Below, piece after piece: positions 1,768 through 15,277 of a stretch of DNA of 22,400 nt. The notes beneath the pieces are model-generated. The model saw nothing but the letters and a program-made list of their open reading frames with translations. It did not search any database and was not told the DNA's origin. The position numbers were made by a program, and so were the translations under genes. The stretch is from Bacteroidales bacterium. Lineage in GTDB: Bacteria; Bacteroidota; Bacteroidia; Bacteroidales; WCHB1-69. Numbering within the stretch: position 1 is the stretch's first letter; each line of letters opens with the position of its first letter. The DNA is taken from positions 1 to 22,400 of the forward strand of contig JAEERB010000022.1 in assembly GCA_016285615.1 (NCBI GenBank), read 5' to 3'.

Positions 1768-1914
1768 CAGATGAGAATTTTTTTTTCAGAAAGAAACAAA
1801 AAAATCCATTGCATCCATTATCATATCTATTAATATAGACTTTTTCAGAAATATTTAAATTCGTCCTTGCTTAAATTTATTTATAATTTAATGTAAACAT
1901 TGTGTTAATTTTAT

Positions 1915-1922
1915 TATATTTG
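1915..1922 (+). promoter_or_regulatory. -7 box of the first ORF6N gene
   Basis: TATATTTG matches TANNTTTG and lies about 60 bases before the ATG at 1985. No TTG is found 19-21 bases upstream, so this is a partial match in an AT-rich background. Confidence 0.45.
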
Positions 1923-1984
1923 CAATGAATAAATTCATTCTAAAGGAAACATATTGAACTTATTTTCAGATAAATAAAAAAAAC

Positions 1985-3022
1985 ATGTCTGATCAAAATC
2001 TCAATTTTATAAAAAAACACATCTACACCATACGTGGTATAAAAGTTATGCTTGATGTTGACCTTGCCGAAATTTATGGCTATCCAACTAAAGCGCTAAA
2101 TCAACAAGTTAAAAACAACATCCAAAAATTTGATGACGATTTCCGATTTCAACTAACCAAAGAAGAATATCATGTTATAAAATCGATTGAACAAGACAAT
2201 GAATTATTATATAACACATCAAAACATGCTGAAAATAAAAAAGATATTATTTTGAGGTCAAAAATTTTGACCTCAAAATCAGAAACCAGGGGAGGCCGAC
2301 AATACCTTCCATACGCTTTTACCGAACAAGGCATCTATATGCTAATGACTGTTCTAAAAGGAGATCTCGCCACACAACAAAGTAAAGCTCTCGTACGCGC
2401 TTTTAAAGAGATGAAAGACTTGATATTCAACAACCGCATACTACCAGCCCATCATGAACTCTTACAACTTGCCCTTCAGACAGCGCAAAACAGTTCCGAC
2501 ATCGCTAAACTCAAATTAAACATGGTTTCAAAAAATGATTTAGCCAAAGTTGTCAACAAATTCATTGATCCTCAGGCACATTACGAGTATCTCATTCTTG
2601 ATGGTGAAACTGTTGAAGCCAATCTCGCATATAGCAAAATCTATCAAACTGCCCAATATAGCGTATTTGTCATCGATAATTACATCAACCTTAAGACGTT
2701 AGCGTTACTTAAAGTTGTTGAACCACATATTACCACCACAATTTTTAGCGACAATATTGGTCATGGATTGCATCAAACAGATTTAAACGATTTTAAACAA
2801 CAATATCCTCACATTCATTTGAACTTTCAACAAACTTGCGGAAAATTTCACGATCGATACATCGTTCTTGACTACAACACAAACAGCGAACGAATTTTTC
2901 ATTGCGGTGCTTCTTCAAAAGATGCAGGTAAGAAAATTAACACCATCATTGAAGTTGCCGATCGACAAGTTTATCACCAAATCATTGATGACTTACACTC
3001 CAACCCTAAACTATCCTTCTAA
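1985..3022 (+). CDS. ORF6N-domain protein with phospholipase-D-like C-terminal region
   Basis: The product has 345 residues. Residues 8-95 match the ORF6N domain (IYTIRGIKVMLDVDLAEIYG, then ALNQQVKNN, FRFQLTKEEY), a DNA-binding module first seen in phage antirepressor-like proteins; LPYAFTEQGIYML continues the family signature. The C-terminal part (about 195-345) contains H-D-R-Y-I-V-L-D followed by a GASSKDAGKK segment. That has the H-x-K/R-x4-D spacing of the phospholipase D superfamily with Arg for Lys, so a nuclease-like or decayed fold is inferred, not shown. The gene is visibly AT-richer than its neighbours and stands alone between rpsT and radC, which suggests horizontal gain. It has a perfect 31-base palindrome at 2249-2279 within codons 89-99. 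It ends 10 bases from the convergent radC. Function is unknown. Confidence 0.85.
   Translation: MSDQNLNFIKKHIYTIRGIKVMLDVDLAEIYGYPTKALNQQVKNNIQKFDDDFRFQLTKEEYHVIKSIEQDNELLYNTSKHAENKKDIILRSKILTSKSETRGGRQYLPYAFTEQGIYMLMTVLKGDLATQQSKALVRAFKEMKDLIFNNRILPAHHELLQLALQTAQNSSDIAKLKLNMVSKNDLAKVVNKFIDPQAHYEYLILDGETVEANLAYSKIYQTAQYSVFVIDNYINLKTLALLKVVEPHITTTIFSDNIGHGLHQTDLNDFKQQYPHIHLNFQQTCGKFHDRYIVLDYNTNSERIFHCGASSKDAGKKINTIIEVADRQVYHQIIDDLHSNPKLSF
2249..2279. repeat. Perfect palindrome inside the first ORF6N gene
   Basis: ATTTTGAGGTCAAAA (2249-2263), a central A (2264), and its exact reverse complement (2265-2279): 15 base pairs with a one-base centre. It encodes ILRSKILTSK in frame. The second ORF6N gene has a related palindrome at the same codon phase (7546-7570). 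Confidence 0.95.
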
Positions 3023-3032
3023 CTCCTGATTT

Positions 3033-3749
3033 TCACAACAGGCTTTCTCCGTGAAAGCTAAAATAGTTCTCCTTGCCGATGATAATATGGTCGATGACGG
3101 CTATATTGAAAATAGCGGCGGCATCTTTTATCTTGTTAGTCAGTTTGATATCATCGGCGCTTGGGCGCACATTGCCTGTAGGGTGGTTATGACACAAGAA
3201 CAATCCCGTGGCATTGATCTCCACGGCCTTCTGCAAAATCAGCCGGATGTCCACCGTCGTATGGTCAAGTCCCCCCTTCCCTATTTTCTCTTCCGTAAGA
3301 ATAGCGGCATTTTTGTTGACATAGATGGTCCAGAACTCCTCATACTTGAGATGCGCCAATCGGCCATACATCAACTCGCGAATATCTTCTGAGTTCCTGA
3401 TTTTCTTGCGCGCGACCACTTTTTCAGCACGGCATCTCGCACCCAACTCAAAAGCCGCCTGCAACGTCAGAGCCTTGACCGGCCCGACGCCAGTAATCTT
3501 CGTCAGCTGTTGCAACGACATCTCCGCCAACATATTAAGTCGGTTGTCGCAACTTGCCAACAATCTTTTAGCCACATCCACCGCCGACTCGTCATGAGTG
3601 CCACTGCGAAGTAGAATGGCCACCAACTCGGCATCCGACAACGCCGACGCCCCCTTCTGCATAAACTTTTCGCGAGGACGATCCATGGCATTCCAATCGG
3701 GAATGGTCAAACGGGAAGAACCTGCTTGCTTCGGCATGGCTACAAGCAC
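3033..3749 (-). CDS. radC: RadC family JAB/MPN-domain protein
   Basis: This 238-residue protein has a helix-hairpin-helix segment (about 80-105, LTKITGVGPVKALTLQAAFELG) followed by the RadC JAB1/MPN metalloprotease-like domain. The latter carries HNHPTGNVRPSADD (187-200), whose His, His and Asp are the zinc ligands of the JAMM motif. The family was once linked to DNA repair but its biochemical role is unsettled. Length is normal (about 220-240). The ATG at 3749 overlaps the end of the upstream DUF58 gene by 10 bases; an in-frame ATG at 3737 (MPKQAG) is an equally plausible start. The two are therefore translationally coupled. It converges with the ORF6N gene with 10 bases between stop codons and no visible terminator. 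Confidence 0.93.
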   Translation of the reverse strand: MLVAMPKQAGSSRLTIPDWNAMDRPREKFMQKGASALSDAELVAILLRSGTHDESAVDVAKRLLASCDNRLNMLAEMSLQQLTKITGVGPVKALTLQAAFELGARCRAEKVVARKKIRNSEDIRELMYGRLAHLKYEEFWTIYVNKNAAILTEEKIGKGGLDHTTVDIRLILQKAVEINATGLFLCHNHPTGNVRPSADDIKLTNKIKDAAAIFNIAVIDHIIIGKENYFSFHGESLL

Positions 3750-4684
3750 TTTTGCCGTTTCAACAAATAGGAAAGCAATATCTGGTCGAAGCCGGCCGTG
3801 ATATCTACGGGCACCATATCTATCTGATAACCACCGCAGCGCAACTTCAGCAAGTGGAAGAAATCGCTGACGGCCGCCCTGTAATAGTCGCGCACATTGT
3901 TCGAGTGCAACTTCACCTCCTCGCCCGACTCCATATCGACAAACTTGTAGAGACGATTCTCCAAGGCAAAATCAAACTCCAACTGCTTGTGGTACGTGTG
4001 GAAGAGAATGACCTCGTGCTTGTTGTGGCGCAAATGCTGTAATGCTAACATCAACTCGTTCACATCCTTATCGGTCTCAAACATGTCGCTGAAAATGACC
4101 ACCAATGAGCGCTTATGTATCTGCTCAGCAATGCGATGCAGCGTGTCGGTCACCATCGACTTGCGGCGCACCTCGGAAGAAATCGGCTGCAACACCTTCT
4201 CCAACTCACGGTAGAGCATCTTCTGGTGCAACTGGCCGCCACGGGCATTGGTGTGCAACTCGAGCGTGTCGGAAAAGATGCTCAACCCAACCGCATCTCT
4301 TTGATTTTTAAATATCTGCATCAACGCCGCCGCCGCATAGACCGAAAAGAATATCTTGTTTGGCGACTGCAACGTGTATTTCTCCTGCAAGGGGAAATAC
4401 ATCGATGAGGAATTATCCAAAATGATATGACAGCGCAAGTTGGTCTCCTCTTCAAAAGTCTTCACAAACAACTTGTCAGTCTTGGCATACAACTTCCAAT
4501 CAATGTGCTTGGTCGGCTCACCTGTATTGTACTGGCGATGCTCGGCAAACTCTACCGAGAAGCCGTGCAGAGGACTCTTGTGCATGCCTGTGATAAAGCC
4601 TTCCACCACCTGCCTGGCCACAAACTCCAAATTATCATACTGCGTTATCTTCGAAAAATCAAGACTGTAAGGCATACGTTTCAA
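3740..4684 (-). CDS. DUF58 / von Willebrand A-like domain protein
   Basis: The 314-residue product carries the DUF58 signature at about 40-80: GFSVEFAEHRQYNTGE, then KHIDWKLYAKTDKLFVKTFEEE. A MIDAS-like Asp-x-Ser-x-Ser follows (DNSSS, 90-94), predicting a metal-binding von Willebrand A fold. Such proteins usually sit beside MoxR AAA+ ATPases and act as cytoplasmic adaptors in chaperone or maturation systems; no MoxR gene is in this window. Here it is instead followed by overlapping radC. There is no transmembrane segment, unlike many longer DUF58 proteins. The start at 4684 has a TATTTTTG box about 40 bases upstream. Exact role unknown. Confidence 0.9.
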   Translation of the reverse strand: MKRMPYSLDFSKITQYDNLEFVARQVVEGFITGMHKSPLHGFSVEFAEHRQYNTGEPTKHIDWKLYAKTDKLFVKTFEEETNLRCHIILDNSSSMYFPLQEKYTLQSPNKIFFSVYAAAALMQIFKNQRDAVGLSIFSDTLELHTNARGGQLHQKMLYRELEKVLQPISSEVRRKSMVTDTLHRIAEQIHKRSLVVIFSDMFETDKDVNELMLALQHLRHNKHEVILFHTYHKQLEFDFALENRLYKFVDMESGEEVKLHSNNVRDYYRAAVSDFFHLLKLRCGGYQIDMVPVDITAGFDQILLSYLLKRQKCL

Positions 4685-4723
4685 TCAATTAATCAAATTC
4701 ACTAAAGAGGCATCCTCAAAAGG

Positions 4724-4731
4724 CAAAAATA
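4724..4731 (-). promoter_or_regulatory. -7 box for DUF58-radC operon
   Basis: TATTTTTG on the minus strand (4731-4724), about 40 bases before the DUF58 start; no well-spaced TTG is seen upstream. It lies between the cysS terminator and the operon, as expected. Confidence 0.5.
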
Positions 4732-4816
4732 CAATTTTTCATCAAAAGAAACAGAGAAATGAAAAATTTTTGTTAATTTTTATTCTTTTGAAAATGATGA
4801 TGTTAGAAAAACCATC

Positions 4817-4849
4817 AAAAAAAACGCCCGAAAACTAAATATTTTCGGG
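4817..4849 (-). terminator. cysS terminator
   Basis: CCCGAAAA (4827-4834) and TTTTCGGG (4842-4849) form a perfect 8-bp stem; on the minus strand it is followed by GCG and eight T (4824-4817). It starts 38 bases after the cysS stop. Confidence 0.85.
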
Positions 4850-4886
4850 ACATTTTTTCGGAGACAATATATCATTACAGAATATT

Positions 4887-6359
4887 CTATAACAACTCCC
4901 ACGTAGCGCCGTCCTTGGCATCCTTGATTTGGACACCGGCCTCGTGCAATTTGTTGCGGATAGCGTCAGCCACGGCCCAGTTCTTGGCGGCCTTAGCGTC
5001 CTGACGGATATCGAGAATCATGTTCATCAACTGATCGATAAGAGCTGCATTATCATTCTGTTGCAGCGCTTCTTTCATACCCAAAATTTCATGATAGAAG
5101 ATATGATAATACTTTTTCAGCATATCCAAATCCTCGGCGGTCAAAGTCATTTTGCCATCATGAACAGAGTTGATGATGCGGGTGGCGTCGAACATCTCGG
5201 CAATCAGCTTGGGGCTGTTAAAGTCATCATCCATAGCTTCATAGCAACGTTTTACCCAATCTTGGATACTCTCGGAAGAGGTGGCGCCGGCTTTAAGTTT
5301 GGGCAGCAACGACTCAGCGGCGTAGAGCTTGGTCATACCCTTTTCTGCCGCTTGTAAGGCTTCGTTTGAGAAATCGACCGTGCCGCGGTAGTGTGCCTGC
5401 AGCACGAAGAAACGGATAACCATGGGCGAGTAAGCACGCTCGAGCTGCGGGTGGTTGCCCGTAAAGAACTGCTCCAGCGTGATGAAGTTGCCCAGCGACT
5501 TGCCCATCTTCTGTCCGTTGATGGTAATCATGTTGTTGTGCATCCAATACTTAACCGACTCCTTGCCATTAGCCACAGTGCTTTGACAAACCTCCGACTC
5601 GTGGTGCGGGAAGAGCAGGTCGATGCCGCCGCCGTGGATGTCGAAGTGCTCTCCCAAGTACTTGGTACTCATAGCAGTACATTCGATATGCCACCCCGGA
5701 AAACCGTCGCTCCACGGAGAGGGCCAGCGCATAATATGCTCAGGGGCAGCCTTTTTCCACAGGGCGAAGTCGGCAGGATGATGTTTCTCGTCCTGACCGT
5801 CCAGTTCGCGCGTATTTGAAATCATCTCGTCAAGCACGCGCCCCGACAGTTTGCCATAGCCGAAATCCTTGTCGAATTTGACCACGTCAAAATAGACGGA
5901 GCCGTCAGAAACGTAAGCATAGCCCTTATCCAGAATACGTTGCACCATCTCAATCTGTTCGATGATATGGCCAGAAGCGCGCGGCTCGATGGAGGGGCGC
6001 TTCACATTCAGCGCATCCATCGCATCGTGATATCTATCCATATAATACTGAGCTACTTCCATAGGTTCCAATTGCTCAATGCGGGCTTTCTTGGCAATCT
6101 TGTCCTCACCTTCGTCGGCATCATGCTCTAAATGGCCCACATCGGTAATGTTGCGCACATAGCGCACCTTATAGCCCAGATGCTGCAGGTAGCGGAACAC
6201 CAAGTCGAAGGTCACCGCCGGACGGGCATGACCGAGGTGCGGGTCGCCATAGACGGTCGGACCGCAAACATACAATCCCACACGACCTTCGTGCAACGGC
6301 ACAAAAGTCACTTTCTGCTTACTTAACGTATTGAAGATTACGAGATTATTTTCAATCAT
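4887..6359 (-). CDS. cysS: Cysteinyl-tRNA synthetase
   Basis: This 490-residue class I aminoacyl-tRNA synthetase charges tRNA-Cys with cysteine. The HIGH motif is HLGH at 41-44 in [13 protein letters not shown]; the KMSKS loop is KMGKS at 284-288. Zinc ligands Cys32, Cys227 (in GWHIECTAM) and the His-His-Glu at 252-254 are present. The C-terminal helical anticodon-binding region is complete and ends [12 protein letters not shown]. Length is normal (460-490). The start at 6359 ([16 protein letters not shown]) matches the family N-terminus. A TATCTTTG box lies about 32 bases upstream and a strong terminator follows, so it is monocistronic. Secure. Confidence 0.98.
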
Positions 6360-6390
6360 AATGCGATGTATTTAGTTTGTTTCAGGAGCG

Positions 6391-6398
6391 CAAAGATA
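6391..6398 (-). promoter_or_regulatory. cysS -7 box
   Basis: TATCTTTG on the minus strand (6398-6391), ahead of a leader of about 30 bases. The -33 element is not clear. Confidence 0.5.
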
Positions 6399-6436
6399 CG
6401 GAAAATTCTAGAATAAAACAGTAAAGATTATTAGGC

Positions 6437-6564
6437 TGTGAAGTGAGGAGTGAATAGTGAGAAGTTAAGAAGTTAAGAAACTAAGGAGTTAAGGAACTAA
6501 GATAAAAGAACAACTGTTTTCAGTTTTCAGTTCTCAGTTCTCCTCTCTCATCTCTCCTCTCTAC
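6437..6564. repeat. Composite tandem-repeat island between cysS and thiamine pyrophosphokinase
   Basis: Two blocks on the plus strand. The first (about 6440-6505) is purine-rich with period 8, units like AGTTAAGA and AACTAAGG. The second (about 6516-6564) is made of TTTTCAG-type heptamers passing into CTCCTCT-type units. The second block runs into the last 12 codons of the thiamine pyrophosphokinase gene. Bases 6440-6469 recur exactly, inverted, at 18522-18551, and 6462-6489 recur exactly at 18974-19001. Confidence 0.9.
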
Positions 6565-7182
6565 AAAAACGAGTACTTCTCCTTTCTCAAACTCCACTGT
6601 AAACTCCTCTCCCAGCGCTTCGTTGAGGGCTCCTTCCCAAAAGTGATGGAAACTCCGCCGGCTAACGGGATAGCGCAAATTGTGGAAAGTCAGTTTCATC
6701 TCTGGGGTAAAGCTGAAAATGGAGACCTGCTGTCCTGGCTGCGATGGCAGCGTGATAGTCTGGCAGGCAGGATAAAAGAGGCCGTAATTGGTCACCATAA
6801 CCATCTCGCGCTGAGGCGCGTATGTCATCAGCAGGCTAATATTCGAGAGGGCGTGATCTTCGCGCAGGCCCGTAGCGCCCACAATGGCAATGGCACCCTC
6901 GTAATGCTGGATGGCGTAGCGGATAGCCTTGTGCAAATCGCAGATTTCCACGTCCTTATCTTCCACCAACAGCGACCTGTAACGAGTTCTGTTTTCTTCC
7001 GAAATGGAGTCGAAGTCGCCGATAACCACCGACGGCTGCAGGTGCAACGCCGCCAATTTGTCAATAGCGCCGTCGCAACAGATGAGATGCTCGGCATCAC
7101 GTAACAGCCGCAGCGGCAGCTCGTGTGTGGGCGTTTCGCCGTTAGCGAGAATCACAATAGGATAATCTGTCAGGATTTTCAT
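6520..7182 (-). CDS. thiN: Thiamine pyrophosphokinase
   Basis: The 220-residue protein transfers pyrophosphate from ATP to thiamine, giving thiamine diphosphate. Family motifs occur in order: CCDGAIDKL (35-43), GDFDSI (55-60), CDLHKA (81-86, usually TDxxKA) and GLREDHALSN (105-114), followed by the smaller beta-rich thiamine-binding domain. The start at 7182 is fixed by the promoter: the TATCTTTG box ends only 5 bases upstream, so the mRNA should be almost leaderless. The natural fold seems to end near VLVFVE; the last 12 residues (RRDERGELRTEN) are encoded by a tandem-repeat island that has run into the gene. It stands alone, with no thi genes nearby. Confidence 0.92.
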   Translation of the reverse strand: MKILTDYPIVILANGETPTHELPLRLLRDAEHLICCDGAIDKLAALHLQPSVVIGDFDSISEENRTRYRSLLVEDKDVEICDLHKAIRYAIQHYEGAIAIVGATGLREDHALSNISLLMTYAPQREMVMVTNYGLFYPACQTITLPSQPGQQVSIFSFTPEMKLTFHNLRYPVSRRSFHHFWEGALNEALGEEFTVEFEKGEVLVFVERRDERGELRTEN

Positions 7183-7186
7183 GCTG

Positions 7187-7194
7187 CAAAGATA
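7187..7194 (-). promoter_or_regulatory. -7 box of thiamine pyrophosphokinase gene
   Basis: TATCTTTG on the minus strand (7194-7187), only 4 bases from the start codon at 7182. If used, transcription starts at or within a few bases of the ATG. Confidence 0.5.
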
Positions 7195-7266
7195 AAAAGA
7201 AACGGCGATTCGCGATTTAAAAATGCATTAAACAAAATATTTTACTCTTTATTTTTAAATATTTTT

Positions 7267-7274
7267 TATCTTTG
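7267..7274 (+). promoter_or_regulatory. -7 box of the second ORF6N gene
   Basis: TATCTTTG 28 bases before the ATG at 7303, in an AT-rich intergenic stretch. It is the mirror image of the box driving the divergent thiamine pyrophosphokinase gene about 70 bases away. No well-placed TTG is seen. Confidence 0.55.
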
Positions 7275-7302
7275 TATTTTAAATTATTTAACATTATAAG
7301 AT

Positions 7303-7956
7303 ATGGAACAGATCGAAACAATACAAAATCTAATTTATGTCATTCGCGGACGACGTGTGATGCTGGACTACGACCTTGCGCGCATCTATCAAGTTGAAAC
7401 AAAAGTTCTCAATCAGGCGGTTAAAAGAAATCCCAAACGATTTGAGGGTGAAGAATTCATGTTTCAACTTACAAAAGCTGAATGGAGATCCATCATCGCA
7501 CAAACCCTTAACACATATCCTATTAACAATGAGGATATTCCAGAGTTGCGGTCACAATTTGTGACCGCAAAATCCATAAGAAAACAAAGATTCCAACCTT
7601 ATGCATTTACTGAAATCGGCGTTTCAATGCTAAGCAGTGTGCTACGATCTGAAGTCGCCATACAAGCCAACCGGAAAATCATGCGAGCCTTCGTCGCATA
7701 CCGTCATCTAGCTGAACTGCCTATTGCCGCTACCTATCTCGACTTAAGAAAGCAGATTGAAGATATCAGAAAAGAGATGAACAACATTCTCGCCGACCAA
7801 AATGACATTAATGAGAGCATTTGTGCCCAACTCGATGCAATCAGTATCGCCTTGGCTGAACTGCAATCATCTGAAAAGCCAACCCATTCTCCCTTACAGC
7901 ACCATTCAATTGGATTCATACGACCTCACGAAAAAGAAGAGGAAGAAGAAAATTAG
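7303..7956 (+). CDS. ORF6N-domain protein with C-terminal coiled coil
   Basis: The 217-residue product begins with an ORF6N DNA-binding domain (about 4-115): LIYVIRGRRVMLDYDLARIYQV, VLNQAVKRNPKRF, FMFQLTKAEW, then PYAFTEIGVSMLSSVL and MRAFVAYRHLAE. Residues about 145-190 (DLRKQIEDIRKEM onward) are heptad-like and probably a coiled coil, consistent with dimerisation; the tail ends EKEEEEEN. It lacks the phospholipase-D-like region of the paralogue at 1985-3022. Identity to that protein is moderate and confined to the ORF6N half. A perfect 25-base palindrome lies in codons 82-90. It reads toward pth, which has its own promoter. The domain is known from phage and bacterial regulators; this protein's target is unknown. 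Confidence 0.85.
   Translation: MEQIETIQNLIYVIRGRRVMLDYDLARIYQVETKVLNQAVKRNPKRFEGEEFMFQLTKAEWRSIIAQTLNTYPINNEDIPELRSQFVTAKSIRKQRFQPYAFTEIGVSMLSSVLRSEVAIQANRKIMRAFVAYRHLAELPIAATYLDLRKQIEDIRKEMNNILADQNDINESICAQLDAISIALAELQSSEKPTHSPLQHHSIGFIRPHEKEEEEEN
7546..7570. repeat. Perfect palindrome inside the second ORF6N gene
   Basis: TTGCGGTCACAA (7546-7557), a central T (7558) and TTGTGACCGCAA (7559-7570): 12 base pairs with a one-base centre, coding LRSQFVTA in frame. It is homologous in position and reading phase to 2252-2276 in the first ORF6N gene. Confidence 0.95.
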
Positions 7957-15222: not shown

Positions 15223-15253
15223 AAAAAAACAGGGTAATCTTGCGATTACCCTG
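15223..15253 (-). terminator. Terminator of the rplM-rpsI-rpsB-tsf operon
   Basis: CAGGGTAATC (15230-15239) and GATTACCCTG (15244-15253) form a perfect 10-bp stem with a four-base loop, followed on the minus strand by seven T (15229-15223). It starts 24 bases after the tsf stop. Confidence 0.93.
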
Positions 15254-15277
15254 TTGGAAATATCTTTTAAATAAGAC

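Follow-up and report, generated by a model that had tools for sequence, protein, structure and literature searches.

An ORF6N gene family appears to carry the DNA target of its own protein within its coding sequence

Genes encoding an ORF6N domain, which make up a large DNA-binding family in bacteria and viruses, appear to carry the mirror-image target of their protein within their own coding sequence. The case is built on a stretch of 22,400 nucleotides (nt) from a Bacteroidales bacterium (assembly GCA_016285615.1, contig JAEERB010000022.1, positions 1 to 22,400), referred to here as the window, which holds two ORF6N genes, each with a perfect palindrome in the codons of its DNA-binding domain. 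Variable bases of the palindrome covary with residues of a putative recognition helix encoded 45–50 codons upstream. Judged by this covariation, the palindrome is very probably the DNA target of the protein in which it lies, whatever the role of that self-binding.

Palindromes within ORF6N coding sequences

Both window proteins exceeded the curated cut-off of the ORF6N profile PF10543 (27.8 bits), with 105.1 and 108.4 bits. The genes and their palindromes are as follows.

1985..3022, plus strand: ORF6N gene 1, 345 amino acids, ORF6N domain and C-terminal part (PF10543, E 2.4e-30)
7303..7956, plus strand: ORF6N gene 2, 217 amino acids (PF10543, E 2.3e-31)
2249..2279, no strand: in-gene palindrome of gene 1, arms of 15, one-base centre at 2264 (palindrome scan)
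7546..7570, no strand: in-gene palindrome of gene 2, arms of 12, centre at 7558 (palindrome scan)

An earlier sequence-only reading of the window had described two perfect inverted repeats with a one-base centre, placed in the same reading phase of the two genes. Both were found where it had put them, the first being longer than described: the core of gene 1, TTGAGGTCAAAA-A-TTTTGACCTCAA, lies at 2252-2276, and perfect pairing continues outward to 2249-2279 (31 nt). The palindrome of gene 2, TTGCGGTCACAA-T-TTGTGACCGCAA, encodes residues 82-90. In each gene the centre is the first base of a codon, and the encoded peptides are LRSKILTSK (gene 1) and LRSQFVTAK (gene 2). Comparison of the arms confirmed the two symmetric differences claimed earlier, at offsets 3 and 9 from the centre, each with a matching change in the opposite arm. 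No other perfect palindrome with an arm of at least 12 and a loop of at most 3 occurs in the 22.4-kb window, and none of 100 mononucleotide shuffles of the window gave one.

We gathered ORF6N genes by homology from genomes of one bacterial order (an ORF6N match was present in 132 of 295), from named species genomes, from viral contigs and from further genome regions; record titles of the named-species loci include Bacteroidota, Pseudomonadota, Omnitrophota, Gastranaerophilales, Lachnospiraceae and archaea. The homology-only set, 231 loci plus the window, yielded 268 domain hits. Removal of 29 hits lacking the FTE anchor and of 10 near-duplicates left 229, and removal of 5 short and 13 low-scoring rows, 7 of the latter carrying palindromes in another reading phase, left 211 genes aligned at the LRSQ-x-VTS site. 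An enlarged set of 319 dereplicated genes (443 hits less 89 less 35 near-duplicates) and the later sets include up to 38 loci picked by or around hits to the palindrome pattern.

Among the 211 homology-only genes, 2338 of 2532 cells at offsets 2-13 were paired, against 1693 ± 14 when arms were permuted among genes (maximum 1736 in 500 permutations). Pairs averaged 11.08 of 12, and synonymous recoding lowered this mean to 4.79. In 197 genes the native sequence outscored each of its 100 recoded versions, and perfect 12/12 pairing was seen in 76 genes, where recoding predicts 0.02. This codon-preserving test over homologues, which the sequence-only reading had proposed, thus revealed palindromes well beyond the two window genes. 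In the enlarged set, 316 of 319 genes scored 9-11 of 11 pairs at this place, the best site having 11, 10, 9 and 8 pairs in 137, 137, 42 and 3 genes, respectively, and perfect arms of at least 12 were present in 106 of the 316 sites scoring at least 9. A control stretch of equal width 200 nt downstream reached 9 pairs in 8 of the 319 genes and never more. The 89 hits removed from the enlarged set were scanned over a wider stretch, and all 27 with at least 85 residues scored 9-11 of 11. One further gene (L287) holds three consecutive repeats of LKTQ/LKSQ/LRSQ type, apparently three in-frame sites.

Synonymous codon choice within the site tracks the base in the partner arm. Valine at site position 6 was found with TCA for Ser3 in 121 of 121 genes and alanine with TCG in 32 of 35, and a codon 6 with middle G accompanied a codon 3 ending in C in all 40 cases. 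Likewise, a middle G in codon 1 (Trp) went with TCC for Ser8 (29/29) and a middle T (Leu) with TCA (106/108), and a middle G in codon 2 went with ACC for Thr7 (111/113) and a middle T with ACA (14/16). Agreement was weak for codon 2 with a middle A: only 10 of 21 genes had ACT, the codon that would match.

These sites could also be read as RNA or as peptide. A messenger RNA hairpin controlling translation, termination or decay was among the options raised by the sequence-only reading; the repeat could fold, and viruses contain similar repeats that precede T runs. The tolerance of G.U pairs belonging to a coding-strand RNA was not seen, as G.T wobble was depleted as much as A.C: G.T or T.G cells numbered 28 (185 expected) and A.C or C.A cells 58 (219 expected) in the 211 genes, and 53 (286) and 79 (324), respectively, in 316 genes. 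The surplus of A.C lies mainly at offset 7 (30 of 58), a count that taken alone is compatible with an RNA of the opposite strand; once offset 7 is left out, the 316-gene counts become 39 and 44. We therefore regard a hairpin as most improbable. Even less probability attaches to the repeat being a by-product of the conserved peptide LRSQxVTS, common as that peptide is in the phase-0 genes. Peptide constraint was rejected by the synonymous null, which gives 4.8 of 12 pairs, and by a second reading phase: in 23 of 316 sites the centre is one base out of phase, and the same core encodes VTNCD-type peptides instead (one of the 23, L122, looks misplaced). The lack of a wobble preference and the same core in a second phase point to double-stranded DNA, and not RNA or peptide, as the level at which the constraint acts. 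The earlier suggestion of a constraint on nucleic acid and not on protein is upheld by the synonymous null and the arm permutation over the 211 genes.

A putative recognition helix and its probable site

Residues whose changes accompany changes in the palindrome fall in a putative recognition helix and just after the site; their places in the window genes are listed below with alignment columns in brackets.

2087..2116, plus strand: gene 1 recognition helix, codons T35-N44, with K36 (N25), Q40 (N29) and N44 (N33) (alignment and eye; covariation columns)
7399..7428, plus strand: gene 2 recognition helix, codons T33-R42, with K34 (N25), Q38 (N29) and R42 (N33) (modelled helix 33-42; covariation columns)
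2300..2305, plus strand: gene 1 codons Q106 and Y107 (C44, C45) (by eye; covariation columns)
7588..7593, plus strand: gene 2 codons R96 and F97 (C44, C45), 3' of the site (by eye from the invariant P99; covariation)

For a tree of 293 phase-0 genes, built from the domain minus the site codons, changes were mapped by parsimony rather than by a full model, and co-change on branches was compared within strata of branch length. In 60 of 69 cases (10.1 expected, z 18.7), changes of the offset-4 pair shared branches with changes of N29, which lies in the post-turn helix (ETKxLNQAVKRN). Further co-change linked offset 5 to N29 (z 10.8), offset 7 to N25 (z 11.5), offset 10 to C44 (z 10.6) and offset 8 to C45 (z 10.1). 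Among 1500 random pairs of protein columns, the 99th percentile was z 2.8 and the maximum 6.8. Columns C24-C26 touch the outer arm and were therefore not counted as evidence of covariation.

The covariation follows simple rules. At offset 4, glutamine at N29 goes with A:T (159/165), glutamate with G:C (68/71) and arginine or lysine with C:G (52/54); lysine at N29 also goes with T:A at offset 5 (20/20). Lysine at N25 is accompanied by G:C at offset 7 in 166 of 166 genes, and arginine there is mixed (45 A:T, 12 G:C and 42 unpaired of 99). At offset 10, arginine at C44 goes with G:C (193/198) and lysine with A:T (54/60), and at offset 3, arginine at N33 goes with C:G (273/276) and asparagine with A:T (14/16). 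Standard contact chemistry would match A to Q or N, C to E and G to R or K, in agreement with these rules.

To hold out data, each of 87 clades was predicted from the remaining clades. With one residue as predictor, offset 4 was correct in 279 of 283 genes (baseline 160), and high scores were also obtained at offset 5 (274/277, baseline 230), offset 7 (225/243, baseline 180), offset 10 (279/288, baseline 230) and offset 3 (287/288, baseline 273). The helix was readable in 300 genes; of their 287 paired in-gene sites, 281 fitted their own protein, a fit scored on the genes from which the code was read, the clade prediction being the held-out test. Two of the six misfits (L045, L323) have a second, fitting in-gene site, and in L013 a site that fits lies upstream; the sites of L036 and L122 appear to be misplaced, which leaves L268 unexplained. 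The rule also extends to the other-phase genes: of 32 rows, 29 were paired at offset 4 and 27 of these fitted, the misfits being L268 and L122, whose centre looks misplaced. Two of the fitting rows (L237, L031) are fragments of doubtful phase.

By these rules, both window proteins fit their own sites. The lysine and glutamine of each helix match G:C at offset 7 and A:T at offset 4, and at offset 3 the asparagine of gene 1 fits A:T and R42 of gene 2 fits C:G. The offset-3 difference between the two palindromes is thus what the rule predicts from R42 in gene 2 and N44 in gene 1. The difference at offset 9 is not explained in this way, and the window case is accounted for in part.

An AlphaFold2 model of the gene 2 protein (73 sequences, mean predicted local distance difference test score 82.4) placed helices at residues 22-28 and 33-42, which by inspection resemble a helix-turn-helix (HTH) arrangement. 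Helix 33-42 would contact DNA, judged by its place and by the covariation. The model is of low confidence over residues 71-90 (block means 64 for 71-80 and 54 for 81-90), mostly the stretch encoded by the palindrome. No significant fold match to the model was found in the PDB (best E 0.97, Dachshund), and a sequence search disclosed no solved relative. From the constraint on double-stranded DNA and the covariation between helix and palindrome, binding of each gene by a dimer of the ORF6N protein that it encodes is very probable.

Extra sites, domain relatives and gene mobility

Sites outside the usual place were defined by a perfect inner five and 9 or more of 11 pairs. Their density was 0.82-0.86 per kb at 0-200 nt upstream of the domain start and 0.00-0.33 per kb in most other 100-nt bins outside the gene, with 0.55 at 500-600 nt downstream. 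Such a site lies at most 250 nt upstream in 50 of 319 genes, some being plain AT-rich palindromes, and no clear pattern of promoter motifs was seen near upstream sites. One locus (L372) has, between 90-192 nt ahead of the ORF6N domain, four family palindromes with differing cores, 34 nt apart; offset 4 is paired in two of them, which are of unlike types there, and unpaired in the other two. Clusters of two or three palindromes of unlike types were also observed downstream of ORF6N domains in L082 (3021/3073/3115), L304, L318 and L340, which include Flavobacterium-type genomes. Extra sites as targets of resident paralogues were not supported, since their similarity to in-gene sites of the same genome was 15.40 of 20 against 15.02 ± 0.30 for those of other genomes (n = 47).

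In the order examined, a strict form of the pattern was found in 36 of 291 genomes, all ORF6N-positive (lists compared by eye), and its reversed control in none. A regulon in bacterial genomes was rejected on this confinement. Counter to this stands a Sulfurospirillum plasmid site flanked by genes for a Sir2-family protein and for DNA polymerase IV, with no ORF6N gene annotated in the 6 kb examined (NZ_CP059996.1, 19146-19173, L515). A plasmid of Legionella oakridgensis (NZ_CP004007.1, 35693-35720, L516) has a site just past the end of an ORF6N gene.

Viral contigs gave the strict pattern in 91 records and the control in 16. Among 80 viral-pattern loci, the site falls inside an ORF6N gene in 4 and close to such a gene in 2; in the remaining 74 no ORF6N gene is close by. 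Searching viral sequences with gene 2 as the sole query returned no match. Dereplication by flank left 41 clusters against 10 in the control, and symmetry at free offsets was present in 34 of 41 clusters at offset 4 and 29 of 41 at offset 8 (control 3/10 and 0/10). A T or A run accompanies 7 of 41 viral clusters and 2 of 10 control clusters, which may be terminators. Some sites (L471, L478, L482, L459, L438, L465, L417) lie, in two reading phases, within apparently unrelated phage genes, judged by eye as helicase-like, nucleotidyltransferase-like and others.

The related Bro-N domain (PF02498) was sampled with 30 loci, 4 of them lacking a readable frame. In 21 of the 26 readable genes, a stretch 32-38 codons before a conserved anchor scored 9-11 of 11 pairs with other cores; 17 of these 21 had a synonymous P of at most 0.05 and the other four 0.08-0.17, and a control stretch downstream of the anchor reached 9 pairs once. 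Five of the 26 have no in-gene palindrome, three of which, flagged by motif, we take to be DinD-like. A viral Bro-N-like protein (L444) has an in-gene site encoding LMSQIGTSG after an HTH-like stretch. None of 25 KilA-N (PF04383) loci, six of them from one genome, fell under P 0.05 against the synonymous null (lowest 0.07). A feature common to the whole superfamily was rejected on the absence from these 25 loci and from the five Bro-N genes.

Both window proteins match PDC-S05, a candidate defence family in PADLOC, with E 4.2e-100 for gene 1 (residues 7-339) and 1.8e-46 for gene 2, as do three further scanned proteins, and both match PHROGs profiles named anti-repressor. The C-terminal part of gene 1 (window 2783-2971) has a weak match to VPA1262_N (E 2.8e-5, under the curated cut-off) and holds an HDRxxxxD...GASxKD motif, which to us is reminiscent of phospholipase-D-like enzymes. 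Elsewhere in the window, AACAGGGTAATCTTGCGATTACCCTGTT at 15228-15255 has arms of 12 and a 4-nt loop and lies between two minus-strand open reading frames, possibly as a terminator.

Gene 1 is missing from the nearest compared genome (G001), where about 97 nt between rpsT and radC replace about 1.24 kb (window 1793-3030) and the flanks are 97-98% identical. Gene 2 is kept there at the same place, so at least one of the two genes comes and goes alone. No transposase or integrase was seen beside gene 1. Among close pairs, the 33 site bases of genes from different genomes, diverged by 8-16%, differed at 0, 0, 0, 0, 0, 1, 1, 2, 3, 5 and 5 positions (11 pairs, two duplicate-locus rows being excluded; some genes occur in more than one pair). 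In five same-genome pairs, diverged by 11-18%, the counts were 5, 8, 10, 11 and 0. This suggests that paralogues may diverge in specificity, with small numbers and one contrary pair.

Possible roles of self-binding

In the explanation we propose, the ORF6N gene would bear a dyad-symmetric double-stranded DNA site within the codons of its DNA-binding domain, encoded in a permissive loop and read by the protein's own homodimer. Residues of the recognition helix and a few residues after the site would read bases 3-10 of each half site. Binding of the in-gene site in the cell would then act as built-in negative control, as an autogenous operator or a roadblock, and this control would accompany the domain irrespective of the promoter or C-terminal part that the gene came to acquire. 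That autogenous control is the purpose of self-binding we hold to be an evenly balanced question. A site bound by the ORF6N dimer had been offered by the sequence-only reading as an operator for autoregulation; the dimer-bound site is strongly supported by covariation, with autoregulation as a possible purpose. Several observations weigh against our explanation. At about 240 nt into the gene, the in-gene site is unusually placed for an operator. Upstream sites of ORF6N type fit their own protein in 17 of 38 cases, where chance gives 16.4 ± 2.5, so that upstream sites as self-operators, and with them a cognate promoter site, were not supported; downstream sites likewise fit in 7 of 16 (7.0 ± 2.0 expected), and extra in-gene sites do fit (12/14, 7.2 ± 1.7 expected). 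Held-out prediction was weak at offsets 8 (195/245, baseline 165), 9 (252/284, baseline 239) and 11 (236/283, baseline 232). Finally, 34 of 36 whole viral records with sites have no ORF6N match, many being fragments, and self-control alone does not account for these sites.

A self-immunity tag resembling the aba element of the BstA system is possible, though less likely than autogenous control. ORF6N proteins would act against mobile DNA, the in-gene site would mark their own replicon, and the extra sites near ORF6N genes and in viruses lacking ORF6N would be passwords for other ORF6N proteins. The match of both window proteins to PDC-S05 points in this direction, tempered by the status of PDC families as unvalidated (PMC12988326), and so does BstA itself, a protein with a KilA-N or KilA-N-like domain whose cognate DNA element overlaps its gene (PMC8585504). 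The extra flanking sites are independent of the gene's own specificity and nearly so of that of same-genome genes, full sites occur in viral records without an ORF6N match, and the four upstream sites of L372 are of unlike types. Upstream sites do not avoid their own type, however, as collected foreign passwords might; a lone gene flanked by core genes, the situation in the window, undergoes no lytic replication that would need protection; and some viral sites resemble terminators. On a joint reading that we put forward only tentatively, ORF6N and Bro-N would form a widespread password system in which proteins read the password in their own codons and so tell self from foreign DNA; with the same reserve, rival elements and viruses might collect the passwords of others as extra palindromes, intergenic or within unrelated genes.

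Self-binding might instead serve recombination (also an option of the sequence-only reading), the control of replication or the assembly of a complex nucleated on the gene itself, but we consider such uses improbable. Tandem ORF6N genes and extra sites exist, and gene 1 is present in the window and absent from that place in G001; yet pairs with unlike halves gave no clear breakpoint signal of recombination at the palindrome, as judged without a formal test. Arm-to-arm correction by template switching, which would perfect a palindrome without selection for a binding site, yields strict Watson-Crick symmetry such as that observed. It predicts neither the helix covariation nor a core in two reading phases, nor the absence from the 25 KilA-N loci, and this option of the sequence-only reading is very unlikely as the sole cause, although it could help in keeping the arms matched.

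We know of no defence gene other than BstA with cognate DNA in its own locus. The ORF6N genes resemble this case in having a DNA-binding domain of the KilA-N kind and a short element in the own locus, cognate here by covariation only. The aba element overlaps the bstA gene, acts as DNA and is cognate to the protein; it has direct CCCGCC repeats and covers 34 bp at the start of the gene together with the 29 bp preceding it (PMC8585504). The ORF6N/Bro-N site differs in being a mid-domain palindrome instead of CCCGCC repeats at the gene start and in its domain families, the 25 KilA-N loci having no such palindrome, with a candidate defence role only. Similarity also extends to the autogenous operators of dimeric helix-turn-helix regulators, in which a dyad-symmetric site is read by the regulator, as covariation suggests here. 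Those operators normally lie in promoters, whereas the ORF6N site lies in the DNA-binding-domain codons of nearly every member and covaries with the helix. REP and Rickettsia palindromic elements are dispersed mobile palindromic repeats that can lie inside genes; unlike them, the strict ORF6N pattern is, in the order examined, limited to ORF6N-positive genomes, and the in-gene sites match the encoded protein. No description of an in-gene ORF6N/Bro-N palindrome was found in the open-licence literature searched, though one could exist elsewhere, and the accessible text of papers naming PDC-S05, PMC12988326 among them, held no mention of an in-gene site.

If this explanation is true, the DNA target of a very large number of uncharacterised ORF6N and Bro-N proteins is supplied with the gene, and their recognition code would be readable from genomes. 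The explanation could also account for the movement of lone genes between genomes and for the exchange of partner domains without loss of control, and would connect BstA with a family of candidate phage-defence proteins. Agreement of the rules with standard contact chemistry makes a swap of specificity directly testable.

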